A stretch of DNA of 30,307 bases from Spirogloea muscicola (lineage: Eukaryota > Streptophyta > Zygnematophyceae > Spirogloeales > Spirogloeaceae), in NCBI GenBank assembly GCA_009602725.1, contig WELB01000055.1, forward strand, positions 204,589 to 234,895. The letters run 5' to 3'. Positions 1-29,919 of this stretch are shown here, one piece after another. Below the pieces are notes generated by a model, which had not been told where the DNA came from, ran no database searches, and worked only from the letters and a program-made list of their open reading frames with translations. The stretch's first letter is position 1, and the number at the start of each line of letters is the position of its first letter. The position numbers were made by a program, and so were the translations under genes.

Positions 1-945
1 GGCGGCGGGGCGGCGCCGGCAGTGGCCCGCGGCCTGCATGAAGGTGGCGGCGGCGGCGAAGGCGCGCCGGAGGACGAGAGCTTCGCGGCGCAGCTCCGCG
101 GCGACGACGGCCGGCTCCACCGCTTCGCCGCGGTCGTGGCCAACGTGAGAACGGGCCATGGCGCCGTCGTGGGTGAGCCCCCGAGCCGAGCCCGGGCTCC
201 GGAGCTGCAACGTCCGGGCCTTTGGCGATGGCCCTCTGGAACGCCGCAGGCGCCGCTAGCCCGTCGTCAGGAGCCACCGGGAACCACCAATGGCGGATCT
301 CCGCGACGACTTCACTGGCGAGGGTGATAGGGGAAATGCATTACTGATTCAGCTGTGCAGGCCGGCCGTTATCGTACACCAACGGGTTGTCATGGGAACC
401 TTTGGGCTACTCAGACCTCGGGTTAAGAGGGGCCGCTCGGTATGCAGAGGAGCGCCTCAATATGTCCGGCTGATCCCGCAGCTACGGGGATCAGAGACTG
501 CGGTCAGGATGTTGGCTTTATGGTCCACGTAAAGAGAAAGTCTACCAGTTAATTGCTGTTTCCTAATATCAAGCGGATATGCGTAGTATGCATGCTCCAT
601 TAGTGTTGCAGCTGCGAGCTGGTCGGTGTAGTTGACCAGAGTGCCTGCTTGAGCACTTGTGAGACTGCGAGGCTGATGAGGAGGCCGGTCTGTGCCACCG
701 CCCAAAGCCCTGTCAAGAGGGTTCAATGAGCATCAGTAATCTGGGCTTCTATGTGGAGCTTGAGTGACGGCCTCCTACTTAAGACGTTCAACGGCTCGCA
801 GTTGCTCTGCCGGACGCTTCGCGATGGACTCAGCTGACCGTAGAGGGGCAAAGCGCCTCTGGGAGCAACGTCAGCTGTGGCCTACTGGCGTGTCTTTGCA
901 GACGGGCGACAGTCATGGAGGTCATACAGAAGCTCATTCCAGCTC
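1..945. other. Left edge, no recognised gene
   Basis: The first ~300 bases are very GC-rich and open on both strands. A minus-strand frame opens with ATG at 160 and runs off the left edge (MARSHVGHDRGEAVEP...), and a plus-strand frame runs through 22-327. Either could be a terminal exon of a gene outside the window; I recognise neither protein and cannot choose. From about 330 to 945 composition is more balanced. I see only short frames without recognisable domains, including an open minus-strand frame at 457-726. This interval should hold the promoter, and possibly a short 5' exon, of the FIST-LON gene, whose frame is closed upstream by a TAG at 841. Confidence 0.4.
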
Positions 946-3900
946 ATGGCTGACAAGAGGCTGCTGTGGACTGCCGCAGAGGCGTGGGAGATGGCGCGGT
1001 CAATGGTTGGGGGCCCGCCGACCGCGGCCGTGGCCTTCGTGTCGAGCGCGTCCCCAGCTGCGGCCGCGGGCGTGGCGAAGCTGGCGGAGCTCCTGGCGTC
1101 CAGCCATGACGAGATGGCCGGGACCCCTCCGGAGGCTGGCGCTGCGCCGCCGCTTATTGGCTGCGTGGGCCTGCCCTGGCCAAATGTGCTCAGCCGGGAC
1201 CCCGGCAGCCGGTCGAGCACTGTGGCCGGCGAGCCGCGCAGCTCGGCAGAGAGGAGGGGCACGGCGGCGACAGCTGCGGCGGCAGCGAGCACCAGTGGGA
1301 GCGGTGGTGGCGAGCGGGAGAGCCGACGGAGTGGCGTCCTCAGCGTGGGCGGCTTCCGGATCCACGACGAGGAGGACCTTGCAGCGCTGCTGGAGCACGT
1401 GCGTGCAAGCAATGCGGGCTTCGAGTTCTTCTCTGCCACCGACGACAACGACGACGACGACGAAGACGACGAAAGCAGCGACAGCGGCGAGAACAGCAGC
1501 GGCAGCGACGAGGGGCACGGGGGGGTGACTGACACGGACGACGACGAGGACGACGAGGAGGCCGAGGAGGTGGACCTCGGGGCGCTGCTGGAGGACCTCC
1601 AGGAGGCGATGTGGGAGGAGGGCAAGCCCGGCGCGGCGGGGCAGCAGGACGCCGCCGCTTGCGCGGACGATGCAGAGAGCTGGGCCGCCTTCTTCCCGGC
1701 CCTGCATGCTGGCGGGCATGGCGGCCAAGGCTGCTCCTCGCGCCGGTCGGTCGCGCGGACGCCGCAGCACAACAGCAGCAGCAGCGCTGACTCCATCCTC
1801 GCTTCGATTACGTTCCCATCCTCCAGCCCGGCGCGTTACCGCAACTTGTACTCCTTTGGTGGCAGCGACCACCGGAGCCCCAACAGCTTCCGGCTCGTGC
1901 TTTGCCTCGCCCACTTGCCCGGTGTTGCGGCCACCTCCTTCCACACCGCCAGCCCGGCACTGCCGTACCTTCCCAACATGGAGCGTGCTGTGGTGGCAGA
2001 GAACCCTCACATGCTCTTCTTCTGCGCACCTGGTGAGTGGCGCAATCCTAGGAAATGCAGACTCTGAAAATTTTGAGAGCCTGGAGACCTTGTGTTGTCA
2101 GTGTAAGCATACCAGAAACGTTTTGCACTGCAACTTGATATTCAAATCACATAATGAGGATGGCTTTCTTGGCCTAACGGCAAGTGTGATGTTTGTGCTG
2201 CAGGCTTTGATTTCACAGAGTTTGTGCAGCGGCTAACTACTGTGTTCCCACAAGGGGCCAGGTGAACGAGCCTCGCTACGCACCATAAAATTTACTATGA
2301 ATGCCAGTTCGAAGTCCATTCACTACATCAAAAAGTCCAAACTCTCAATGCTGTGGTTTTCTGCAAGTATGGTATAATCTGATGAGATCGACGATCTAGC
2401 CAAGTAGACTGCAAACTGATGTGGCTTGTTTGCTGTCAAGTACTGTGGGTTGTTTAAGATCACTTGAAAATCATGAAGCCCGTTGAGGTTGCTAACACAT
2501 AACCAACAATGGACATTTGAGCATAAAGTGTTCTAAGTGAGGCTTAGTGGCTGTGTGACATCAACAGGGCTGGAGCCTTCCTGGGCCAAGCGGTCTGGAA
2601 GAGGTCGCGTGGTGGGGTGCAGCTGGATTCAGCCCAGTCTGACAACAATGAGACCCTCTTCTTCGGTGCAAACACCTCGACCACTGGAGCAGTGGGCCTG
2701 TCCTTCACCTCTGATGGTACCTATTCAGCCCAGAGCGGCTCTGGTGATATCTAAAATGTCGCGCTTGTGCAACAGCAAGGCTGCAGAATAAGCACTGAGG
2801 CCGTGCTTCGAACCTTGCTTGAAATCTTGAGACAGTAAGTAGCCATTTATACAAGCCTGAGATCCATGGAATGAGTAGGCACCGTAAATCCCAAACCCCA
2901 GGCCCTGACTCCTGGTCCTCAGCCCAAGGACTTCCGGTCCTCGGCCCGACTGTTGGCTCCAACTGCCATGTTCTTATGTATTGTCTTGTACTCCTGGCAG
3001 GGACCCATTTGCCAGTACCTCTTGAAGCCTTCTCACAATTTGTCCAGTTCTCGATTGGAGTACCACGACTGAATGCCATCCTGTACCTGGAGTAAGCTGA
3101 CAGTCAGGACGTTGATGCCTGAGACGTCGTGCCATGCCATCAATTGTATTGCACATGAATGACAGAAATTTGCGAAGTGCAGTGACTGAATTGATCACCT
3201 TTTCATACAGTGATGTGGTCAGCGAGAAGCTCTTTCTGCCAGTCAGCCAGCTGCAGGAGCAACCAGCAGGAGCGCAACAGGAAGGAAAGAGGGCGGCTAG
3301 AGCAGTCTCCATTCAGGCCATACCTGCCAGTTCACCTGTTGAGGCAGCTCAAAGTGCAGCAAGTCTTGCCGACGCTTTGTCGTCAAAGGCAGGCGAAGAT
3401 GCACGAGCAAACGTGAAGGCCTCCATTGTGCTCCTGAGGGAGCTGGCGAGTGCTGCAGCAAGTGGAAACAAGAAGCTGGATGCTGCAGGCATTCTCCAGG
3501 GAGGAACGCAGCAGGTGGTGCTTGACGCCATGAAGCGGGGCTCAAGAAGCGGTCAGAAGGGCGAAGAAGAGGCGAGGATGAGGCAGGAGGTGTTGCAGTC
3601 GAGAGTCGGTAAGCAGGATCAGACGGATAAGGAGAGGGTGTTGGCTGACGGCTTGGATCGGAGGAAAGCTGGCGAGCAGCGACGAGTCAGAGCAGGGTGG
3701 CGGGCGTGGAGCAGCGGCGATGTGGCGCTTGCCCTATTTGACGACGTTGTCTTCCCCGGCTGGTCACGAGCGTACCACATTTTTGAGCCCCGCTACCGAC
3801 TCATGGTAGCCCAACCTGACAGAAACTCCAACCCCACATACAATATATGATCTCATCATGCCTGGAAGATTTGCAAGACATGAAGCATATACACTGTGAC

Positions 3901-5579
3901 ATTTACTTTGTCTAATACTGTCAGGACATCCTTCTTGCAACCCCTGGTGTCAAGACAATTGCTACCTTCTCTATCTTAACCTCGTCTCCTCGAGCCACTT
4001 TTGTCCGTTATGGACAAAAGTGTGAAGTAAGGCCCTTCTGCCAACTGCTTCAGGTCAAGGAGTGCGTTCAAGAAGGAAGGCCATTTGGCATAGCTGGGTT
4101 GGACTATTCCTCGGGCTCTCAGGAGTCGACGTCGTCAAGCGGTGTTGCACATGTCATTGGCACCCTTGCTGTGAGTTGTCATACTTGAGCTGCATTGTGA
4201 GGCCAAGTAATTGGCTGTGATTGCCGATTGTTGTGCCTGACAGTACTAAATTGCACTGCTATCAATGGTCATATATTACTTCGGCTACTATCCACAAAAT
4301 GAAGCGACGCAACATGATTTTAATTTGGTCTGTGTTTCTTGAGATTGTTTATCCTGATTGACACTTCTTGCCCAATTGACACTTCTTGCCCACCATCAAT
4401 ACCACTTAGTCAGAACCTCAAAGTTCAACACAATGAACCAGATGGTCGATCTGTGATTGTAGCTCACGGGGTTAGGCGCTTTCAAGTGCCTGAGACAAGG
4501 TCAGTGCCGCATGCTGCAGCTGACAAGCAGGCTATATCCATGAGGTGTTTCAGCCTGACATGTAGCAATACTTAGCTCTTCTTTGTTGGCATGTCTCATT
4601 CACGAAGCAGTCATGGCTGAGCCCAACTTTGAGTGAAAAGGAAAGCTTCACATTTGACCTCACAATGAAACAAAGCAATGGATTCTTTTGCTGTAAATGT
4701 GCAGTCTGAGAATACAAAGAGGTGGTTCTTTTGGTCTGCACGTCGCAAAGGTGCTAAATAAAGATCGGTGCATACTCAATCCAGCCAGGAAATGCAGGAG
4801 ACAAAGCATTTTGTTTTCAGTCAAATGGTGACATGGTCTTGATCTCGAGTGGGTGCACTTCAGACTTTAGTCGATGTTGAGAGATTTGCAGCACTGAGAC
4901 AAGCTGTAAATTCATGTCAGGCCCCGATTGAGCTCTTGGAAGATGACGCAGTGGAGGAGGGCCGGAAAATGAGGCAGTTGCTCTACCTTACCAAACGAAC
5001 CATTGAGCTTTGTCAGCGGATAGTACCTAAGGTTAGTATGACCCTCTTGTGATCAAGTCACTGTCATGCATGCCTTAGACAAAAGTACAGCAGCATACAT
5101 GAAGCTCTCATGGTTGATGCCGCTTATTTCCTGATGCGATTGTTGTCCTTGTTGCCAGGCGGAAGCACTTGTTAATTTGAGCAGCAAGGCGGATGACCCA
5201 GTTGCAGCGTCCTTTGCCTTGGCTCACGTTTTAGAAGCACCAGTATGCTCCTGAAAGTGCTTCCCATGCTGCTTAGAATTAGATTTCCAGGTCTTCCTCT
5301 GTGCAGTGAAAATATTTCTCATCAACGACTACAAGTCGATATTTGAGTGCTGATATCTGTTAGGTGTGTATCCTAAGATTCTGGCAACGCCCAGGATGAA
5401 GTTGAACACCACACCCTCTGTGATGCTGATGTGCACTGATGGGGGCTTTGCTTATGTCTGACATGTAGACGGCGGTCAAGAGAAGGTGGTTGTGCACCAC
5501 TGATACAAGGCTCCGTCTCCTTGACCTCTCACAGCACCTGAAAATGCTCTCGCTGCCCGCCTCTGACAACAACCAATAA
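946..5579 (+). CDS. FIST domain-LON domain fusion protein
   Basis: Proposed exons: 946-2032, 2204-2261, 2568-2716, 3001-3091, 3211-3805, 4054-4170, 4414-4499, 4884-5031, 5159-5242, 5469-5579 (about 841 residues). All junctions are GT-AG and keep phase; the 4499/4884 junction is the weakest (poor acceptor). The first half resembles FIST_N, the small-ligand sensory domain also found in F-box protein FBXO22: TAAVAFVSSASP, PPLIGCVG, then PHMLFFCAPGFDFTEFV, AGAFLGQAVW and TGAVGLSFTSD. A low-complexity insert with an Asp/Glu block (1438-1575) splits it. The second half is a LON substrate-binding domain: FEPRYRLM, RPFGIAG, HVIGTLA, PDGRSVIVAHGVRRFQV, then a helical tail with LTKRTIELCQ, ASFALAHVLEAP and TDTRLRLLDL. 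No AAA+ or Ser-Lys protease domain follows, so it is not Lon protease. The linker (3211 to about 3720) is charged and helical. ATG 946 is the first in-frame Met after a stop at 841; an extra 5' exon is possible. Role is inferred as ligand or substrate recognition. Confidence 0.75.
1438..1575 (+). repeat. Acidic GAC/GAG-repeat coding tract
   Basis: Runs of GAC, GAC-GAG and AGC codons encode an Asp/Glu/Ser-rich stretch (TDDNDDDDEDDESSDSGENS, then TDTDDDEDDEEAEEVD) within exon 1 of the FIST-LON gene. It interrupts the FIST-like fold, so it is probably a disordered surface loop expanded by slippage of the trinucleotide repeat. Confidence 0.8.
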
Positions 5580-5901
5580 CAGTATCTGAGGACAAAGCAC
5601 AGGCTCAGATGGTCATGAAGTGGCTTGCAGGCACGCCTTCATGGCAGATTTGGATGATGCTTGCTACTATCAGTAAGCGCACAAGTAAGTAGCAAATATA
5701 AAACTTGCTGTGTCAGGCCCTTTCGCCGGATTACCGGCCAATTTTCTGAGCCAAGCTAGCCCCAAAAAATGTACGCAGCCCTTTCAGGTTCTTCACTATT
5801 AGTGCCTGGCAAAGTATACATGCACAAGATGAAGTCCAGGAGGCAATCTGCCGCTGGCACCATTCTTTCACATAAGCTTGATAGAGCTCTGGCTTCTCCN
5901 C
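5580..5901. other. Short spacer between FIST-LON and Brr2, with an ambiguous base
   Basis: These 320 bases hold the 3' flank of the FIST-LON gene and whatever remains of the 5' part of Brr2. I find no exon resembling the N-terminal region of Brr2 here, and no TGTAA polyadenylation motif. Position 5900 is a single N just before the first recognisable Brr2 codons, which may mark a join between contigs. Confidence 0.6.
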
Positions 5902-8900
5902 GCCACGCGTGCGACAGCCAAGGAGCGGCAGAAGCTCATGGAGCGAAACATCCGGGAGGAAGCTCGGAAGCTGCGGGACGGCAGCAGCGTCAAGGCTGAG
6001 GGCGGTGAGGAGGACGTTGATGCGGGGAGGCGGGCTCTGGAAAGGGAAGGTGCTGTCGCGGACGAGGGCTGGCAAACCGGCCAGCGGCAGCTGCTGGACC
6101 TAGATGCCCTTTCCTTTGACCAGGCAAGCCACTTTGACATGTCATGCTTGGCACTTCAAAGTGAAATGATGTATAATATGCATGAAGCATGTCCTCCTCT
6201 CTAAACAGGCAGTAACAATGCCTTCTCTCGCTGTCACCACCTCAAGACCTCGGATATGTCTTTGGTAGTAATGAGACGGGGTTTTGATACTGCCTGTTTG
6301 GAGAGGACATTCTTCACGCGCATGTACGTACGGCACATGAATGATGACTCTTAAAGGTAGCACTCTGGCAGTATGACTCATTTCATTGTTGTGATGCTAT
6401 ACTGTACAGGGCGGATATCTCATGGCAAACAGGCGTTGCGAGCTCCCAGCTGGCTCCTACAGAGCCGCCAAGAAAGGTTATGAGGAAGTCCATGTCCCGG
6501 CGCTTAAGCCCAAGCCGTTTGAAGATGGGGAAGAGCTCATAAAGGTGTGCTATCTTGCTATTGTTGTTCGAATGCAAAGGCTCAGCCTTTCTCCTGATAC
6601 TATTTAATCCTGAAGTCTTGCTCTCAGCTGTGACCATTCGGTCAGAATGGAAATTAGTAATGAGCTCCTCCTGGCAGAAGCTCGGGCAAGATCATCCATG
6701 CTTAGTTGAAAATTCACCTGCAGGGCATGGAACACATTCTCACTTTCATGTCAGGGGCTGCTTCTGATTGTGTGTTTACTTTTCTGTTATACAAGCAGAT
6801 CGAGGACTTGCCCAAGTGGTGCCAGCCAGCCTTTACCAAGATGAAGACCTTGAATCGCATCCAAAGCAAGGTGTACCCGGCTGCTCTGCACTCTGCAGAG
6901 AACCTGCTCCTCTGTGCGCCAACCGGAGCCGGCAAGACAAATGTGGCCATGCTCACTGTGTTGCACGAGATTGGCCTGCACCGCAGGGAGGACGGCACCA
7001 TTGACACATCCGCTTTCAAGGTGCAGTGCGCAGCGTGCAGCGTCCTGCAGCCTGCAGCATGCAGCACTTGGCGTGCAGCGTACAGTATGCAGCGTGCAGT
7101 GTGCAGTGTGCAAAGTACGGTCTGCCTCTTGGTGCAGAAGTTAGATAGCAACAGACCATGACAAACTCCTGCTTGGTGGTAGACATGATCTGCCTGCATA
7201 AGTGTCTATCCATGCTTAGAAGTGGTGCGGTGCAGATTGTGTATGTTGCACCAATGAAAGCGTTGGTGGCTGAGATGGTGGGCAACTTCTCCGATCGTCT
7301 GAAGGACCACGGGCTCACAGTGAAGGTATTTTGGACTGCTTGATGGTGGCTACCCTTACCTTGTGCCACAAGAGTAGCAAGTCAGGAGAGGAATGCATCG
7401 AGAGTGTGAACATGCAGAGCATCATGCTATGCCCTTGGTATCGGTTTAATAAAGACTGTACACAGGACCATGTACAGGTGGTAAGGTCTCACTAGCTTTC
7501 GATCAGTACTTGAAAAAGGGTAATTTACCTTGTGACTTATTGGAATTTGATATGACTTTGGCTGCAGGAACTGACTGGTGATCAAACTCTTACGAAGCAG
7601 CAGATTGAGGAGACGCAGATGATTGTGACAACTCCAGAGAAATGGGACATCATTACAAGAAAATCAGGCGATCGCACCTACACTCAGGTTGCTTGCGAAA
7701 CCCCATAAGCTGCTCTAAGGACATGCACATCAACATCTCAACTGCAGAGTTTGAAGTTGTATTTTGATTGTCTTATGTCTTTCTTGACGTTCTCTGGACA
7801 CCACATGAGAACAGAGGCTCCATGGAAGAAGTGGCTACAAGGGCGATTAGTAATGGTGAACCTTACAATCAGATCGTTGTTTGCTAGCAGATGGTGAAAC
7901 TTTTGATCATAGATGAGATCCACCTCCTCCACGACAGCCGAGGCCCCGTTCTGGAGAGCATCGTGGCCAGGACAGTCCGGCAGGTGGAGTCGACGCGCGA
8001 GATGATCCGCTTGGTCGGCCTGTCGGCCACGCTGCCCAACTACTCGGACGTCGCTCTGTTCCTCCGTGTGGACCCTGACAAGGGCCTCTTCCGCTTTGAC
8101 AACTCCTACCGGCCCTGCCCCTTGGCACAACAGTACATTGGCATCACTGTCAGGAAGCCCCTGCAGCGTTTCCAGGTGCTCGACTTCATGCGGTCTTAGG
8201 GTGTAGGGCTCGAAGAGAAGAGGATCTCACACACCTCAATGCTTCTGAGTTAGCGGAAGTCAGCGCCAGTTTGACAGCAAGGGTGGTGACTGTGAAGGTA
8301 ACAGCTCTTGGGTTTTGGTTTTGTGGAACTCAGTCAGTTGTTGTGGTTGTTTGCAGCTCATGAATGATATCCTATATGAGAAGGTCATCGAGGCGGCAGG
8401 CAAGCACCAGGTGCTGATCTTTGTGCACTCGCGGAAGGAGACCGCCAAGACTGCCAAGCACCTCCGGGACACGGCTCTTGCAAACGACACCCTTGGCAAG
8501 TTCCTCAAGGAGGACAGCGCGACGCGACTAATCTTGCAGGAGGAAGTGGAGAATGTGAAAAGCCATGATCTCAAGGAGGTCCTGCCCTATGGCTTTGCCA
8601 TCCACCACGCGGGAATGGCGAGGAGCGACCGGCAGCTCATGGAAGAACTCTTTGCAGATGGGCACATACAGGTCAGCTTGCCACCTTGCCCTGCCTTGCC
8701 TTGCCTTGCCTTGCCTTGCTTTCCTGGCCTGATTTCACTGCTTGTTGGTCTCCAGTATCTTCTTGCCCGTGGCTGTGAGAGCATCGGCAGAGAGCGTACA
8801 ATCTGATATAATCTATGTCCTACAAGTAGCTTCATGTGATTCAAAAGTGTCTGGCAAGTAATGCTGTAGTGTAGGCTTGATCCTTGAGCCAGGCTTCTTC

Positions 8901-11900
8901 CAGTCCGTCTAATGGACAAGCCAATCCTTTTGCAGGTTCTGGTGTCGACAGCGACCCTTGCCTGGGGCGTCAACCTGCCCGCACATACCGTGATTATCAA
9001 GGGTACCCAGGTTTACAATCCTGAGAAAGGGTCCTGGGTGGAGCTCTCACCGCTAGACGTTATGCAGATGCTGGGCAGAGCTGGCCGCCCGCAGTTTGAC
9101 ACTTACGGCGAGGGCATCATCATCACTGGTCACGGCGAGCTGCAATTCTACCTCTCTCTCATGAATCAGCAGCTACCGATTGAGAGCCAGTACATTGCCA
9201 AGCTGGCCGACAACCTCAATGCGGAGATTGTGCTTGGCACTGTTCAAGACGCCAAGGAAGCTTGCCGGTGGCTGGCATATACATACCTCTTTGTGCGAAT
9301 GCTCCAGAATCCCACTCTGTATGGGGTCACCCAGGAGGAGCGGGATCGAGACCCCCTGCTGGAAAACCGCCGTGCTGACCTGGTAAGTCAACAGTTTGAG
9401 GAGTTGCATCTTCATCACCCTGTCCCAAGTGTAGCAAGCAGGCACCTTGCCTGCTCTAGGATAAATTTGAATACAGGACTGCTTTCTTTTGATGTCCCAC
9501 TATCAATCAGGTATGATCATGCATTAATCAAAGAGCTTGTCTTTCTTTTCATGATAGATCCACTCAGCAGCAATACAATTGGACAAGAACAATCTTGTGA
9601 AATATGACCGGAAGAGCGGCTACTTTCAAGTCACTGACCTTGGGCGCATTGCCAGCTTCTACTACATCAGTCACGGGACCATTGCGACATACAACGAGCA
9701 CCTCAAGCCCACTATGGGCGACATAGAGCTGTGTCGACTCTTTTCCCTGAGGTTCGCTAGCACAACAAAGTAACCTGCATTTCGTGTAACTTTGTCTTGT
9801 ATCAAGATTGAGAGGCAGGTTCTGTACAGAATGTTCAATGTGGTCTTTGGAAGTCCTTGACCGCAAGCCTTGTGCTGAGAACGTTACAGCACAAACGCTT
9901 TGCCAATGTCCAAGTGCATGTTTCTCTAGCAAGGCTTGTATAAGGGTGAGAAAATTGTTGTCATCTGCAGTGAAGAGTTCAAGTATGTTGGTGTAAGGGA
10001 GGAGGAGAAGATGGAGCTTGCAAAGCTGCTCGAAAGAGTGCCTATTCCAGTAAAGGAGTCATTGGAAGACCCAAGTGCAAAGATCAACGTACTCTTGCAG
10101 GCATACATTAGTCAGCTCAAGCTAGAGGGCCTCTCTTTGACATCCGACATGGTTTTCGTGACCCAGGTACTTTTCACACAAGGTTATTTATGATTCTGTC
10201 TGTTGCCAATTGCAGCCACCAAACAAGGGCTCGAAAGATTTTTGGCCTCAGCATTATAACGCATTGCATTGCAGATACTTCAATCTAATCTTGTCAGGCT
10301 TACTGTTTGTGATGCACTACTTTCACAGTCATTTTTGGAGGTTGGCTTGGGTGCATATGGCTACCCAATGTGCACAGACCATCGCAGTACATCTGTAGCA
10401 GGCGGACAAACTCATATGCAATCTTTGTGTGTCTGGCTTTTGCAGAGCGCCGGCAGGCTGATGAGAGCCCTCTTTGAGATTGTCCTCAAGCGGGGCTGGG
10501 CGCAGTTGACTGAGAAGGCCCTTTCTTTGTGCAAGATGGTGTCCAAGCGGATGTGGCAGAGCCAGACCCCACTGAGGCAGTTCCGAGGCATCCCAGCAGA
10601 CATTCTGTCAAGGCTGGAGAAGAAGGACTTGCCATGGCAAAGATACTACGACCTGTCCTCCCAGGAGCTTGGTGAGCTTGTGCGCTCGCCCAAGGTTGGC
10701 AAGGTTCTCCACAAATTGATTCATCAGGTAACTCATTGCACACTCACACTCACACTCACACACTGCTTACATGCATCATTAGACCCCCGGTATTTAGTCA
10801 CCTCTTCTCTCAAAGCTTGTGCGTTGTCAAGTGGAGCTCGAAGAAGCACTTGGACATCTTTGCTTATGGGTGCCTCTGTGCAAGTGCACCTGACCTTGCA
10901 CATAATCTGAGATTGACTGAGGTGGTATTCTGTGCCCTTGTTTGCAGTTCCCACGTGTTGAGCTTGCTGCTCACATCCAACCAATTACCCGGTCGATACT
11001 CAAAGTTGACCTCACAATCACGCCAGACTTTCAATGGGATGAGAAGATTCATGGCTTTGTGGAGCCCTTCTGGGTGATTGTGGAGGATAATGATGGCGAG
11101 GTCATCCTTCACCATGAATATTTTCTTCTCAAGATGCAGTATGCTGAGGTACCTGCTTTTACTGAATGCATGTCGTTGTGACTGTCATCATGACAATCTG
11201 TCTCTTCTTGCTTACTCAGGAATATGTTTTGCCATGTCTATGAATTACTATTGTGGAACCATCACTACAGTAGTTCACATTGTAGAGTGCAAGACATTTG
11301 TGGTAGAGACTTCAGCATTTACCTTGCTAGTCCACTGTGCAACAGGAGGACCACCATCTGAGCTTCACTGTGCCGACCTACGAGCCCCTGCCACCGCAGT
11401 ACTTCATCCGGGTGGTGTCAGACAAGTGGCTGAACTCAGAGACCGTGCTGCCCGTCAGCTTCCGGCACCTCATCCTGCCCGAGAAGTACCCGCCACCGAC
11501 GGAGCTGCTCGACCTCCAGCCTCTGCCCGTTACAGCACTCAGAAATCCAAGCTATGAGGTCCTTTATGCAAAAAAATTCACCCATTTCAACCCCATTCAG
11601 ACTCAGGTTGGTGTTACTCCTCATCCACCTCTGCTGTGAATATAGAGTAGTAGAGATGCGTAATTAGTATTTCAGTCCGTGGTTGATGCCAGCCGACATG
11701 GTAAATTCTTTTGCGATTTATTTGTGTAGCGGTATGATTCCTGCAGCATGTGCTATTCCTAATTTACAAAGGTTCACAGAGGTCATAGTATCAGATAGGG
11801 GAGAAATTCAGAGGATTACTTTCAGCTGGATGTGCCACTTATGAGCGTCCCTTGATCAGGTTTTCACGGTGCTGTATACTACCGACGACAATGTCCTGGT

Positions 11901-19116: not shown

Positions 19117-19694
19117 NNNNNNNNNNNNNNNNNNNNNNNNNNNNNNNNNNNNNNNNNNNNNNNNNNNNNNNNNNNNNNNNNNNNNNNNNNNNNNNNNNNN
19201 NNNNNNNNNNNNNNNNNNNNNNNNNNNNNNNNNNNNNNNNNNNNNNNNNNNNNNNNNNNNNNNNNNNNNNNNNNNNNNNNNNNNNNNNNNNNNNNNNNNN
19301 NNNNNNNNNNNNNNNNNNNNNNNNNNNNNNNNNNNNNNNNNNNNNNNNNNNNNNNNNNNNNNNNNNNNNNNNNNNNNNNNNNNNNNNNNNNNNNNNNNNN
19401 NNNNNNNNNNNNNNNNNNNNNNNNNNNNNNNNNNNNNNNNNNNNNNNNNNNNNNNNNNNNNNNNNNNNNNNNNNNNNNNNNNNNNNNNNNNNNNNNNNNN
19501 NNNNNNNNNNNNNNNNNNNNNNNNNNNNNNNNNNNNNNNNNNNNNNNNNNNNNNNNNNNNNNNNNNNNNNNNNNNNNNNNNNNNNNNNNNNNNNNNNNNN
19601 NNNNNNNNNNNNNNNNNNNNNNNNNNNNNNNNNNNNNNNNNNNNNNNNNNNNNNNNNNNNNNNNNNNNNNNNNNNNNNNNNNNNNNNNNNNNNN
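19117..19694. other. Assembly gap (578 N)
   Basis: The run of N is flanked on both sides by very GC-rich GCC/GGC-repeat coding sequence. It hides the 5' ends of GID4 (leftward) and PGAP3 (rightward), and their shared promoter region. Confidence 0.99.
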
Positions 19695-21537
19695 ACCTCC
19701 GCCTGCTGCGCTGGACGTGCGCCGGCGAGTGCCGGCACCAGTGCGCCGCCGCCGCCGCCGCGGAGCGCGCCGCCGCCGGCCTCCCACCGCACAAGTACTT
19801 CGGCAAGTGGGCCTTCCGCCGCTTTCTTGGCGTCCAGGTTCGAATTCCAGCTCCAACATGCCATGGACCAGGCCTACGGCATGCTGATCACTCTTCTTTC
19901 TGGGCTGACTTGTATTTGGTGCAAGTACTTTGTTAATGAATCCTTCCATGAGCATCTTAGTAGATGATGTTCTCTTCCTATGCACTCAGCTGACAGAGAA
20001 TTCGTAGACCTATATGATTCGTCTTCTGTTTCAAGTATTGCACTTGTTGACACGTGCCCCTCTTTGAGAAACAATACTATTTCCGATCTTTAAGCCTGAA
20101 GACCACAACTCAGAGCAACGATTGAAGTTATGCTGGTGCGCCAGTAGGTTCAGGAACAGGTTCTCCTGTTACAGATTAATCAAAGGCTTCCAGAGAACAT
20201 AGCCGATTGCAGCCATTGCCCTCTACTGGATGAGCCTTTCTCGTGGCATGATTAAGAGTCTACAACCCAAACCACTGCTGGTGTCCCTGCAGGAGCCTGC
20301 GGCGGTGGCCTTCTCCCTCCTCAACCTCGTCGCCCATTTACACGGCCTGGCGGCGTTCCTGCGCCTGGTGTACCGCCGCCTGCCACGGCAGCCTGCCGGC
20401 GACGGCGGCCCCATCTACGAGTACGCCGGCCTCTGGGCCGTCTTCGGCGTGCTTTCCGCCAACTCCTGGCTCTGGAGCACCATCTTCCACACCAGGTCTG
20501 CACGGTCCTGGCCTTGGCCTGACTTGGGTTCTGGTCGTTAGTCTTTGCTGCCAAGGAAACTTTTGGTCACGGTAATCACTTAGTTGCCTTACACCCTTAC
20601 TTGTGGCAGGGACACCAAGTTCACAGAGGCATGGGACTACTCCTCGGTGATTGCGCTGCTGGGCTTCTCCCTCGTGCTCTCCATCTTCCGTGCCGCCGCC
20701 CTGCGCCTCGAGGCCGCGCGCGTCATGGTGTCGGCGCCCATCGTCGCGTTCGTCGCCACGCACATCCTCTACATGAATCTCTATTCCTTTGATTACGGTC
20801 TGCAGCTGCTCGACCAAGCCCCACTTCCAGCCGCCACTGGCGAGCAGAATGCCTTCAATTGTTGTTGCCCTGCGGCATATTGCCCCTCTCCTTCTGCCAG
20901 AATGCCTGCAAGATTACAGGGCTTATTGCCTGACACTGTTTCAACAAGAAGAATCTTTGTAGAGGGTTGTTACAGAGCCTACAAGTAGGCAAACCTCTTG
21001 TGGTCAAGGGCCAGATATCTGAGACGACTCGCTCGCAGCACTTGTGTCATATGGAAGTTTGACAACCAACCCCACACAGCAGTCCAGCTTTCCATCTTCC
21101 ATTCCACTGCTTCAGATCCCCAGATGCCCTGGCTTATGCTGCAAGTCGGCATGTGGACAGAATGAGATGAACGCTCTGAGTGTGACCGCGTGATTATGTG
21201 GGTTTCTGCAGGCTGGAATATGAAGGTGTGCCTGGCCATGGGCGTGCTGCAACTGGCGCTGTGGTCAACCTGGGCTGGGCTCACGCGGCACCCAGCGCGG
21301 GCGACGGTGTGGGCGACCGCTGCCGGGACGCTGCTCGCGGGCCTGCTCGAGGTGTTCGACTTCCCGCCGCTCGGCGGTGTGCTCGACGCGCATGCGTTGT
21401 GGCATGCCGCCACCGTCCCCCTCACGCTCCTCTGGTGGCGCTTTGCCGCCGAGGATGCGCTCTTCCGGACAACTACGCTCGTGGCGCGCGCCGCTAATGC
21501 TCGAGCACCCGCACATAAGGCTGGCAAAGATCACTAG
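19695..21537 (+). CDS. PGAP3: PGAP3/Per1-like GPI-anchor remodelling protein (5' partial)
   Basis: Exons: 19695-19837 (from the gap), 20293-20495, 20610-20797, 21212-21537, with GT-AG introns that keep phase. PGAP3/Per1 acts in the ER/Golgi membrane to remove the sn-2 acyl chain of the GPI anchor. It belongs to the CREST superfamily of seven-TM, metal-dependent hydrolases. Matching strings are LRLLRWTCAGECRHQC, GKWAFRRFLGVQEPAAV, SANSWLWSTIFHTRDTKFTE followed by WDYSS, LYSFDYGWNM, and EVFDFPPLGGVLDAHALWH. The Ser, His, Asp and C-terminal His pair thought to bind the metal are all present. Several hydrophobic helices are visible (for example the segments after AWDYSS and around WNMKVCLAMG). 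The signal peptide and first Cys-rich luminal part must lie in the gap. The stop TAG is at 21535-21537; the tail ends AHKAGKDH. Confidence 0.95.
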
Positions 21538-22205: not shown

Positions 22206-24864
22206 TTATGCTAGCTGCTCAGTGCTTAGCAGGTGAACAAACAGAGGCAGGTAAACTGCTGCTCGGCCTGGGCTGGAGAGCAGCTCACTGAAGCTCGCGG
22301 CCACGCTGCCCCACAGTGCCGCTGTCAGGAGGTTGCGCTCCTCAACCCATCCGGCGAGAAAGCCGCCGCAGAAGGCGTTGCCGCAGCCGGTTGTGTCAAC
22401 CACCTGTCGCGGCGGCGTCGTGCCAACTGCTTCCACTGCCGCTCCTCTGTCCCTGCCAGCAACTTGCTGCTCTGCTGGCGCATGGCGGTTCTCCTCAGTG
22501 CCGCTACCCCAACTGTCGTCGACTGACACAGGTTTTGCCAGCTGCTGGCCTCCTTCCCGCGGCGCATGTCGGGTTGTCGGCCTGCCCTCCCAGCAGACCA
22601 CGTGGTAGGCAGGGACCTCCCAAGTCTCGCCCGTGTCAGCTCTGTCATGGGTCGAGAGAGGCTCAGTCAAATATAAGACGAGCAATTGCCGCCTCCATCT
22701 GAGGCAGGGCTTGCATTCACGACCAAGATGAGAATCTTGGAAAAGTCAGTGGACATTTAGTACATCGATTCTGTGCTCTATATGTATGCATGAACATGAC
22801 TGGCAAGCCTTCTCCTAGTCTGAAGCCCAAATGTGGAGTCCTAGATCCACTATAGCAGCCTGCTTTGTTACCTGTGAACCACACAGCCAAGCTCCCCTCT
22901 TCTGAGTGACACCACCTACACAGTGTTTGGTAGGTGCGTAGCGCGAGAGGAGAAGTAAGGACACGTCTGACATTGTATGAGAGAATTCTGACTTTCCTAA
23001 CTTTGAGAGAGCTCCCACAAGTCTCGACCTTGGCACCGGCAATAGCTAATCAGCATACTGATCAGGGCCAAAAGAAAAGCGATGGTGATTGCCTTCACAG
23101 TAAGCCTCAAACCTCTGCTCCAAGCTCCACAAGTCGAGCAATGACCTCCAGCGGAGCCCCAGGTCCGACAAGGGACCAGGCCTCCTTTTCGTTCGGCGAG
23201 AAGATGTGCGTGCTCTGCAGCAGTGCTCTGGCACCATCCACCATGCTCCACGACAAGAATGAGGTGTTCAGGAGATGGGCCGCCAGAAGAGCATCATCAT
23301 GAAACGTTTTCAGGTTCCGAAGGCACGCCACAAGCATCTCTTGCGGCCATTCACAAGCAGCTACATGTCCAACACATTTGTCCAGATTCCAGCAGAAGCA
23401 GGTACACTTAGCTACGGCACCTGAGTTCACATAACGGCACTGGTTCGGTGGCGTGTGTGTACGTCTCAATGCTGATGGCTGCCGCCCCAGATGCACGTAG
23501 CTGCCGCACGAACGGCACGTCCCGCTCGCTTGGGTGCACGCCGGCATGGTAAGCCCTGGCTGTCCTGCACGTCTTGCAGGCTGCTGCCTGACCATCGCTT
23601 TTGTGGGTCCAAGCTCCACAAGTGGCAGTCAAATCAGGCAATCACCAGCTCGCTGCTGGTCATCTGACGAGGTGGCTTTCGAGCCATCATTGAAGCCCAG
23701 ATCTAGTGGCTGCAGAAATAGGGTTGAGAATCAGCATAGGATCTGTGGGGTCTGTCTAGGGTTAAGAAGAGACAAGAGTGCTCTAACCGATAGTGTGCAG
23801 GCAGAACGTCAAGCCGTGGCCGCAGCATCCGCCATGCATCGTTGCCGACTGGGACTTGCCACACCTGGCAGCGGAGGTAATGTTGGTAGGCAGAACTTTA
23901 GAGGCAGAATCAATCTCTACCCTGGCCAGCTGGAGCTCTTCCTTGCCAAATGTGGGCTCCTGTGATGGCTGCAGCACCCTGCAGAACGATGTGGGCGTGT
24001 CGGCTATGGTTCTGACCTGCGTCCGTTGCCCATCCTTCTCCGTCACCTGCGAAAGAGTCAATCAAATTGAGGACTCGAAAGAAAGCATAGTTAGGTGCTG
24101 GCGCTCGAGGTCATAGCATGGTGCTTTGACTGAGCAATGCTCCAGTTCCAGCTATTCAAGCTGTTGGCACGATTCCGACGTCGTTCTTGTAGATCGACTT
24201 CACTGTCTGGGTGAAGTTGATCAAGGTCCCTCATGCAGGACTGATAGTTGTTGTGATGGCTTCGAGGTCTGAGCATGCACTGTGAAGCAAGCGGCACCTG
24301 CCAAGCCCGCAGAGTCGGCTGCGGCCACCTTACAATGCCCTGGGTGTTGATACCAGCCGCCGACAGCCACTCCCAACAGGAGCCAGGCAGGTCTGCGCCG
24401 ACTCCTGCAGCCAGGCCAATGCTGCCGGCAGCAGATGCGCTTTCAGCAGTGTGTCATCGTAGCATGATATTGACAATGCCCTGCAGGTTCATGCGTAGCC
24501 TTGACCTTGCATCACCTACCTGCAGTCCTGCGGGGCCAGTAGCCTCATGCCAAAGGCCGTCTGGGCCCCTGCGGCAGCGGTAGAGCTCGAGATGCTGCAG
24601 TGAGTTGCAAGGCGCCTTGCTCCACCTCTACCGAAACTGTGGTCTATGGAGGGCGCTACTAAGGCAAGGAAGCCTCTAGTGCAGCACTTACCACAGTAAG
24701 CATTTCACATTTGGCCATTGCTAGATTGTGGTGCGCTCACCTCCTCCGCCGAGGCAGGCCATGCTCGTGCGACCGTCTGGGAAGACGATGTCATCCACGA
24801 TGAGCGTAAACGTCACATAGTCTAAAGAAGCTGGCTCGGCCTCGCCTTGCTGATTCGCCACCAT
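22206..24864 (-). CDS. pfkB-fold sugar-kinase-like protein, MAK32-like
   Basis: Nine minus-strand exons: 24864-24741, 24568-24520, 24421-24298, 24046-24017, 23864-23788, 23564-23421, 23227-23113, 22915-22872, 22641-22206. All are GT-AG and in phase, giving 380 residues. ATG 24864 ([11 protein letters not shown]) is the first Met before the conserved core. Family strings in order are [139 protein letters not shown], and [19 protein letters not shown]. PfkB proteins phosphorylate sugars or nucleosides; the substrate here is unknown. The signature normally has Asp as catalytic base where this one has Asn (GCGN, codon 22379-22377), as I recall for MAK32-like relatives. About 60 low-complexity residues are inserted just before this motif. 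An inactive or altered kinase is possible. Confidence 0.9.
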
Positions 24865-25500: not shown

Positions 25501-25839
25501 TTGCGTGGCTGCGTGATCTGAAATTCCTGGTCCCTTTTTCTCTTGCGCGCTCTTTCGCGCTCAGGGTCAGGCCATCGGCTTCCGTGGCCGCGGTCCCAAG
25601 TTAGTTGTCGGATTTGTATGTGCTCAGCCCGCGGGTACCATTAAGCAATGCTTCAATTGGCCACCCTATCATTGCACCGCGCGCCTTCTCTCTTTTGCTG
25701 GCAGTTTACAGCCGATTCTTTATCATTTGCAAAAGTTTCTGCCTGATCTTTCCGTCTGAGCAGGCATCCTTAGCGGACCTCCACAGTTTCCGACTGCATT
25801 CCTTCTGGGCTAGAGAAAGTGCTCGCCCATTGAGAATAG

Positions 25840-25858
25840 GGGCTGGAAAAACCAGCCC
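25840..25858 (+). repeat. Perfect hairpin copy (GGGCTGG-AAAAA-CCAGCCC)
   Basis: Seven-base perfect arms around an A5 loop, followed by AAAAAAGAATGAACAGAG. This is the cleanest stem of the hairpin family; other copies keep the CCAGCCC arm and vary the loop. Confidence 0.8.
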
Positions 25859-25931
25859 AAAAAAGAATGAACAGAGTACGAGAAGGGGGCCAGGGGAAGC
25901 GCTAAGAAACAGAAACAAAGCAGCTACGAAT

Positions 25932-26065
25932 CACTCAGTAACCTCTGCTAAGCAGCCGCAGGTCGGAGATGCTAGGCTCGTTGAAGTGGGTTCCCTGGCC
26001 AGAGCCAGAGCCAGCAGCGAGGGCTCTGCCGGCACGAAGGTGCATCGCCCGTGCCATAGACCTTT
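25932..26065 (-). repeat. HLRAGRALAA module, copy 1 (inverted, near-identical to 29507-29640)
   Basis: On the minus strand it reads SMARAMHLRAGRALAAGSGS then DLRLLSRGY. The ~134 bases match the reverse complement of 29507-29640 with only a few differences, so this pair is a recent duplication. Confidence 0.85.
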
Positions 26066-26639
26066 GCAGCGAGACAGCCAGGCGCATTCGATACACTTAC
26101 GCCAGCGACCCGGCTGCAGGATAGTCCACCGGCTCCCCATGGAAGCGACGGGCGATGGTGTGGCGGGCGAGCTGAGTGAGCAGCTCGAGCCACCGAGCGC
26201 CCTTTCTGGGCTGCCCTCTCACAGCCATTGCCTGACACTCGACAAGCTGTTTCTTCGTTCTTCTTCAGACCTCAGTCATTCTTTGATTGCTAGGGCTGGG
26301 TTAATACAGCCTAAGCCCCTTTGCAAGAGCTTCCTCAATATGTATAGATTCTTCCTTTCGAGCATTTTCTATGCTTGCTTTTCACAGCATCCACAGGCTG
26401 AGCATGCAGCAGCACACGCGGCTCGTGGCAAGGAGGGCCAAGTACTCGGACCATTCGGAAGGAAGGGATGAATTTGCTGCACTGGTATTGTCACGGGGCT
26501 TTCGGGTCTCAGTGCTTGGACCTCGTGACCAGGCTTGCGCGTAGCTCGGTGTCACACTGGCGGCACCTCGAGTAGGCTGACTTCAACACCGCTGGCTGGC
26601 TACCGCAGGTGTTCTGTTTGCGCCTTTCCCTTCTCTCAA

Positions 26640-29392: not shown

Positions 29393-29505
29393 TTGGGCTG
29401 GCTTCTCACAGCCTTTAGCCCCCATTGGCAGAGCCACTTCTTTGGCTGTCGTCCTCTATCATGAAGACAAGTGGCTCTCCCAATGGGGGCAAGGGCGGGC
29501 TGTGA
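29393..29505. repeat. Imperfect inverted repeat, ~40-base arms
   Basis: The left arm (about 29393-29435, ...GCCCCCATTGGCAGAGCCACTT) pairs with the right arm (about 29470-29505, AAGTGGCTCTCCCAATGGGG...). About 35 bases separate them. The outer ends are hairpin-motif sequence. Confidence 0.7.
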
Positions 29506-29506
29506 A

Positions 29507-29640
29507 AAGGTCTATGGCCCGGGCGTTGCACCTTCGTGCCGGCAGAGCCCTCGCTGCTGGCTCTGGCTCTGGCCAGGGAACCCACTTCAACGAGCCTAGC
29601 ATCTCCGACCTGCGGCTGCTTAGCAGAGGGTACTGAGTAA
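29507..29640 (+). repeat. HLRAGRALAA module, copy 7
   Basis: Translation reads RSMARALHLRAGRALAAGSG then NEPSISDLRLLSRGY and a stop. Inverted twin of 25932-26065, 3.4 kb apart. Confidence 0.85.
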
Positions 29641-29707
29641 TTCTCCTGTGAAAAGCCAGCCCGAAAAGAACTGACAAAGGTTCTCTGAAGTCCTAGTCCT
29701 TCGCACT

Positions 29708-29778
29708 CCGGCTCCTTCAGACCTTGTCCACTCCTTTGGGCTGGCCTTTTCCAGCCACCAGTCGATCTGGCCGCGCTT
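29708..29778 (-). repeat. GATTGACTGG unit, inverted copy 2
   Basis: Reverse complement of the unit, with CGCACTCCGGCTCCTTCAG then ACCTTGTCCACTCC, GGGCTGGCCTTTTCCAGCC and CCAGTCGATCTGGCCGCGC. Confidence 0.8.
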
Positions 29779-29919
29779 CCTTTCTTTGTTTCTGAATGAT
29801 GTAGCCCTGTTTAGTTTGCCCAGACTCTGTCTGAGCAATGTGTCGGCTTGAATTGGCCTCCAATTCATTTCATGCGCCCCGCGCGCCTTCTCTCTAGGAA
29901 AGGCCAGCCCCATGATGCA

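Follow-up and report, generated by a model that had tools for sequence, protein, structure and literature searches.

Does a green alga encode, in a single gene, a protein that joins a FIST domain to a LON substrate-binding domain? The question is raised by a 30,307-nucleotide stretch of Spirogloea muscicola DNA (assembly GCA_009602725.1, contig WELB01000055.1, positions 204,589 to 234,895 of the forward strand; hereafter the window), near the start of which an initial annotation had read a + strand exon chain as a FIST-LON recognition adaptor. Our favoured explanation, to which as a whole we give a probability of roughly 0.45, is that this chain is one nuclear gene coding for a non-catalytic FIST-LON adaptor. 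Sequence comparison identifies the LON half with certainty and confirms the FIST half as a real, partial and divergent FIST relative.

The exon chain and its LON half

The chain was rebuilt from canonical splice sites, in coordinates of the whole window (Table 1). It runs from 946 to 5579 in 11 exons and is translated into 863 residues with one stop, the terminal one; its 10 introns are all of the GT-AG type, 113-306 bases long, and their phases agree. The phase consistency announced by the initial annotation is thus borne out, but for 11 exons and not 10 (the 46-base exon 4705-4750 included). That exon is required, because the chain without it has 8 internal stops. More generally, internal stops appear when any one of exons 1-5, 7 and 8 is omitted; exons 6, 9, 10 and 11 can each be left out without an internal stop.

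The match to the Pfam LON_substr_bdg profile (PF02190) has an E-value of 7.1e-17 and a score of 62.4 bits (cut-off 28.7). It covers positions 4-199 of the 200 in the profile, therefore the LON barrel and its helical tail are both present. Pfam found no protease domain (AAA+ ATPase or serine-lysine protease) in the 863-residue chain, which ends after LON; the claim of a complete LON domain, with its helical tail and without a protease, stands as made. At E ≤ 1 the protein matched two PDB entries, 7cay (a 193-residue chain named ATP-dependent protease, E 0.0071) and BPP1347 (1zbo, E 0.044), cereblon not being among them. A profile built from the LON half and four cyanobacterial LON proteins had cereblon as its top PDB match (73.1 bits), with Lon proteases next.

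The LON half was also compared with 50 bacterial LON frames, 34 of them short (214-313 residues from stop to stop) and 16 long (450-778 residues), the latter classed as Lon proteases by their length, not by domain. It scored at least 17 bits with 33 of the 34 short stand-alone proteins and 10.9 bits with the remaining one, a Chloroflexi protein; with the long frames (best 12 of 16) it reached 13.9 bits once and at most 4.7 otherwise. The best four of the 50 frames came from two Dehalococcoidia, from one Chloroflexi genome and from the genome hosting locus L113, hence no special cyanobacterial signal. A plastid or cyanobacterial origin of the LON half was rejected, the two Dehalococcoidia proteins (42.6 bits each) scoring above the best cyanobacterial one (33.8 bits). 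Viral contigs yielded no relatives, whether scanned with the LON half (16 pattern matches) or with a LON alignment (57 pattern matches).

A partial and divergent FIST half

Neither Pfam FIST (PF08495) nor FIST_C (PF10442) matched the whole protein, its pieces or an insert-free version at E ≤ 10. For the FIST half, NCBIfam gave no match and PHROGs only a family of unknown function (E 0.8). The Pfam search of the spliced protein proposed with the initial annotation thus returned LON_substr_bdg but not FIST, and a rejection of FIST by profile, which was to count against the claim, did occur with Pfam; it was overturned by a more specific profile, made from 96 FIST sequences of bacteria. For the latter, a DNA pattern for the peptide AQGCRPIG brought together at least 116 genome stretches; among the stretches listed there were 112 open frames of more than 150 residues, 96 of which passed length and motif filters and made up a FIST profile of 406 positions.

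With this profile the protein of the window scored 16.5 bits (E 1.6e-7 for a single sequence), the maximum among 500 shuffles being 2.1, and residues 295-480, which hold the FIST core, scored 20.8 bits, a value equalled by none of 1000 shuffles. As a further comparison, 3932 open frames of at least 80 residues, taken in six frames from the 146 bacterial loci fetched in this work, were scored in the same way: 112 reached at least 100 bits, as expected because the profile was derived from them, none fell between 16.5 and 100 bits, and two fell between 10 and 16.5. None of the remaining 3820 frames thus attained 16.5 bits. Within the window itself (1083 frames of at least 15 residues, both strands) the frame of exon 1 (844-2064) ranked first with 9.0 bits and that of exon 3 (2548-2751) second with 5.7, each weak individually (E 0.032 and 0.32); no other frame exceeded 1.6 bits. 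Two such top ranks are, as far as sequence can tell, what a split FIST region would be expected to give. An hhalign comparison with seven FIST proteins aligned residues 311-464 (probability 87, E 4.1e-6).

The firm match is confined to positions 94-200 of the 406-position model, which belong to the FIST_N part. Ahead of it, residues 1-100 fit positions 27-63 weakly (equalled by 4 of 1000 shuffles and, in a separate test, by 2 of 300); the fit of residues 1-165 is also weak (12 of 1000) and that of residues 1-80 was equalled by none of 300. Between the two lies the insert, for which Pfam gave only matches far under the cut-off. What had been described as a FIST domain split by a long acidic insert is therefore retained as to its homology and the insert with its acidic run, but not as a whole domain: only about two-thirds are present, FIST_C not being found.

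Other searches with FIST sequences gave no relatives: 121 pattern matches when genome contigs were scanned with the FIST core of the window, 26 when viral contigs were scanned with a FIST piece, and 15 viral loci, none with a FIST frame as we read them, when a DNA motif was used. PF08495 found nothing in five viral records, the control giving 2 positives of 14, Synechococcus elongatus and Methanocaldococcus jannaschii. Among the bacterial loci, one from Elusimicrobia (L038) has a FIST frame of 901 residues, 712 of which precede the motif; this is perhaps another FIST fusion. As to detection, the Pfam FIST model passes over the FIST region in the present case, which is eukaryotic and divergent and comes to light with a targeted profile; such regions may be under-counted.

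Weighing a single FIST-LON gene

Ahead of LON, exon 5 holds a charged linker of 155 residues (17% Lys+Arg) that continues into LON with no splice between. Codon usage was scored with a model made of 901 codons from the neighbouring helicase gene. The linker part gave +18.5 bits in frame, the five other frames being at -24.8 or below; exon 1 gave +7.7 bits, against -38 or below for its five other frames. The LON exons 6-11 score low (-1.7 to -7.9). Of what had been argued from exon 3211-3805, the existence of the exon, the coding nature of the linker and its passage into LON hold, but they do not amount to proof of fusion. An armadillo-like linker was considered and dropped, Pfam giving no such match. 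We regard a single FIST-LON gene, with both halves on one transcript, as probable.

Several results weigh against this explanation, in addition to the silence of Pfam on FIST. The first concern the FIST half. FIST_C (model positions 200-406) has no match in residues 425-640, residues 428-490 giving nothing beyond chance, and the FIST fold must therefore be regarded as incomplete. The motifs AQGCRPIG, GEIG and GRG are absent from the 863-residue chain, and the rest of FIST would not fit into the introns separating exon 3 from exon 5 (284 and 119 bases). Pairwise similarity to FBXO22 is marginal at best, with 19 of 1000 shuffles equal for residues 300-490 and 39 of 300 for the whole protein. The seven-protein FIST profile does detect FBXO22 in the PDB (E 3.1e-10), yet it owes this match to FIST_C (37.6 bits, against only 3.6 for FIST_N), the part missing here. 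The accessible part of PMC11185555 describes the FIST domain of FBXO22 as a set of three structural repeats that has no obvious ligand pocket and contacts BACH1 with the edge of its third repeat. By this count the protein of the window would retain repeats one and two without the third. FIST_C not having been found, neither the sensory function of bacterial FIST proteins nor docking as in FBXO22 can simply be transferred to it. Lastly, FIST and LON occurred together in none of the 146 bacterial loci (110 with FIST, 30 with LON), and a bacterial FIST-LON fusion or close linkage was rejected on that count; these loci span at most 8 kilobases (kb), so that the figure says little on distant linkage.

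The exon 4/5 junction was also compared with FIST_C and with the FBXO22 strand LLNEDVSDEK, and both assignments were given up as not significant (84 of 300, 45 of 300 and 335 of 1000 shuffles equal); the hhalign alignment does run on over this junction.

Other contrary results concern the joining of the halves. The segment 2717-3210 contains 37 open, phase-fitting bridging exons (mean in shuffled sequences 11.7), and at least one is found in 299 of 300 shuffles. In-phase bridges being this plentiful by chance, agreement of phase is no proof of fusion, and the initial argument that a frame kept throughout excludes two adjacent genes is lost. Acceptors in phase with the chain also exist at 3183, at 3243 and at four later sites; those at 3183 and 3243 would bypass exon 4. 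That exon lacks support from codon usage (-8.8 bits in frame, with two reverse-strand frames higher), and the score of exon 3 (+2.7) is exceeded by a reverse frame at +9.1. The plentiful bridges and an exon 4 without codon support would also suit two neighbouring genes on the same strand, namely a truncated FIST gene that ends at about 2754 and a LON gene that is extended far at its N terminus and starts at ATG 3134 or nearby. Two further points fit: the stop at 2752-2754 that is reached on reading through the donor of exon 3, and the ATG at 3134, which shares the frame of exon 5. The additional coding stretches that two genes would need score low (-7.4 bits for the 12 codons of 2717-2754 and -11.9 for the 25 codons of 3134-3210), though not decisively so, considering the values of the accepted LON exons 6-11. 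A TGTAA signal, of the kind known from Chlamydomonas, does not occur between 2107 and 4691; this is a weak point, the window holding TGTAA at chance level only. On balance we find two genes somewhat unlikely.

Returning to a single gene, its product might be the receptor of a ubiquitin ligase, with an F-box or other E3-binding module encoded upstream of the window; it would be an FBXO22-like protein in which LON stands where the third FIST repeat would be. Exon 1 has no stop in its frame from 844 to its ATG and an acceptor-like site ends at 901, so the true start of the exon may lie upstream of 946. At the edge of the window, the truncated open frame 1-172 fits this acceptor in phase and may be an upstream FIST-LON exon or part of another gene; with -13.0 bits its codon score exceeds those of the five other frames, one reverse frame being near (-14.9). 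In the accessible part of PMC11185555, eukaryotic FIST domains are described in F-box proteins. Set against this, Pfam returned neither an F-box nor any other domain for the joined upstream piece at E ≤ 10, and the codon score of 902-945 is higher in another frame. We judge such a receptor unlikely.

Less likely still is a single gene in which LON alone works, the FIST part being a relic in decay. The loss would be read from the missing FIST_C, from the insert of about 227 low-complexity residues that breaks up the remainder and from the failure of the Pfam profile; yet exon 1 is open over 362 codons with a codon score above its five other frames, and the FIST_N motifs are kept in the core. 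That the FIST likeness is due to chance in a composition-biased exon, as the silence of Pfam and the low-complexity stretches of the GC-rich exon 1 might suggest, is very improbable and largely refuted already by the shuffles, the open frames of other loci and the ranking within the window.

Under the favoured explanation, the protein would comprise at least 863 residues with no recognised enzyme domain, arranged as about two of the three FIST repeats (the first with the large acidic insert), a flexible charged linker and a complete LON domain of the stand-alone type. The LON barrel and its helical tail would bind a client protein, the FIST part would offer a second docking or ligand-sensing face, and these two faces, carried on long flexible segments, could bring one partner to another. 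We infer which FIST repeats are retained, that the protein folds, and that it acts as an adaptor.

With the part of the earlier proposal that concerned recognition, the LON domain, the partial FIST region and the coding linker agree. Pfam detected neither RING, TPR nor CULT in the 863-residue chain, and no F-box in the chain or in the upstream piece within the window; an adaptor for regulated turnover is therefore something that we infer. A link to ubiquitin is possible by analogy with two proteins: the FIST domain of FBXO22 brings in the substrate (PMC11185555, accessible part), and the DDB1 ubiquitin ligase has cereblon, a LON-domain protein, as a cofactor (PMC4287342, accessible part). More speculatively, LON may have replaced the third FIST repeat in a green-algal lineage, two repeats plus LON forming a new client- or ligand-sensing adaptor, possibly that of a ubiquitin ligase with its F-box encoded upstream of the window; we hold this to be doubtful. 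Should the fusion be true, it would join two recognition modules known separately from turnover receptors (FIST in FBXO22, LON in cereblon), suggest that the third FIST repeat is replaceable, and allow the role of the first two repeats on their own to be tested in a natural protein.

Table 1. Positions of the exons, domains and related features of the putative FIST-LON gene
Feature	Position	Strand	Remarks
Candidate upstream exon	1-172	+	Open frame cut by window edge; donor-like end; phase fits acceptor-like site at 901
Exon 1	946-2032	+	362 codons; N-terminal portion of FIST, long insert holding the acidic run, first part of FIST core
FIST-like N-terminal part	988-1170	+	Residues about 15-75; weak; order agrees with FIST profile
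Insert	1201-1881	+	About 227 residues (86-312); 51-residue run with 51% Asp+Glu
FIST core	1888-2709	+	Residues 315-429, exons 1-3 (1888-2032, 2204-2261, 2568-2709)
Exon 2	2204-2261	+	GT-AG, phase fits; codon score +0.9 bits, other frames at most -7
Exon 3	2568-2716	+	End of FIST core; FIST profile match; codon score +2.7 bits
Exon 4, putative bridging exon	3001-3091	+	GT-AG, phase fits; 1 of 37 phase-fitting choices
Exon 5	3211-3805	+	595 bases; charged linker (residues about 476-630), then LON start
LON substrate-binding domain	3725-5543	+	Residues 634-852, exons 5-11, helical tail included; PF02190
Exon 6	4054-4170	+	Splice sites, part of LON match
Exon 7	4414-4499	+	Splice sites, part of LON match
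Exon 8	4705-4750	+	46 bases; chain leaves frame without it
Exon 9	4864-5031	+	Splice sites, part of LON match
Exon 10	5159-5242	+	Splice sites, part of LON match
Exon 11	5469-5579	+	Terminal exon, stop codon TAA

Downstream on the + strand, at about 5.9-16 kb, lies a Brr2/SNRNP200-type helicase gene, its outer limits read from frames; two frames only were searched with Pfam, 8888-9607 (SNRNP200_wHTH, E 7e-23) and 10260-10910 (Sec63, E 4e-13). This neighbour and the introns point to a eukaryote as the source of the window. A single N stands at 5900, between the helicase gene and the FIST-LON gene. Beyond the helicase gene, a - strand frame at 17550-17987 matches Vac_ImportDeg (GID4-like, E 2e-12), and we take it to be a relative of GID4, a known E3 substrate receptor. 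An assembly gap of 578 N (19117-19694) is followed by a Per1-like frame on the + strand (20203-20541, E 3e-15) and a pfkB kinase frame on the - strand (22206-22745, E 2e-8). Finally, the peptide SAKQPQVGDARLVEVGSLARARASSEGSAGTKV is common to frames 25605-26471 (+) and 29415-29810 (-), and since these are on opposite strands, it may mark an inverted repeat or a mobile sequence.

Relation to known systems

Bacterial FIST proteins (PF08495/PF10442, including the cyanobacterial AQGCRPIG group and NosP) have in common with the protein of the window the second half of FIST_N, in which the series of motifs from LPGV..FH to G.VGL keeps its order. The latter differs from them in having no FIST_C match and none of their AQGCRPIG, GRG and GEIG motifs, and in its large insert and fused LON. 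With FBXO22, which combines an F-box with FIST, the likeness is that both carry a eukaryotic and divergent FIST; for the protein of the window neither a third repeat nor, within the window, an F-box was found, and LON is additional.

On the LON side, LONRF proteins also place a eukaryotic non-protease LON beside regulatory modules, and are set apart, by their known description, through the RING and TPR modules that find no match in the chain. The stand-alone LON proteins of bacteria, BPP1347 (1zbo) among them, equally lack a protease and give the best pairwise scores with the LON half; their frames are short, and none of the 30 loci concerned has a FIST frame. Cereblon, the top PDB match of the combined LON profile, is likewise a eukaryotic protein with a LON domain and no protease, according to the accessible part of PMC4287342; the protein of the window, by comparison, ends with LON and has no CULT match.

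A search of the literature, a weak one with most subscription journals outside its reach, brought up no report of a FIST-LON protein, and this architecture may occur among unreviewed entries of databases. To conclude, the modules are of known kinds, each with relatives in the systems above, and it is their pairing, FIST with LON, that looks new.

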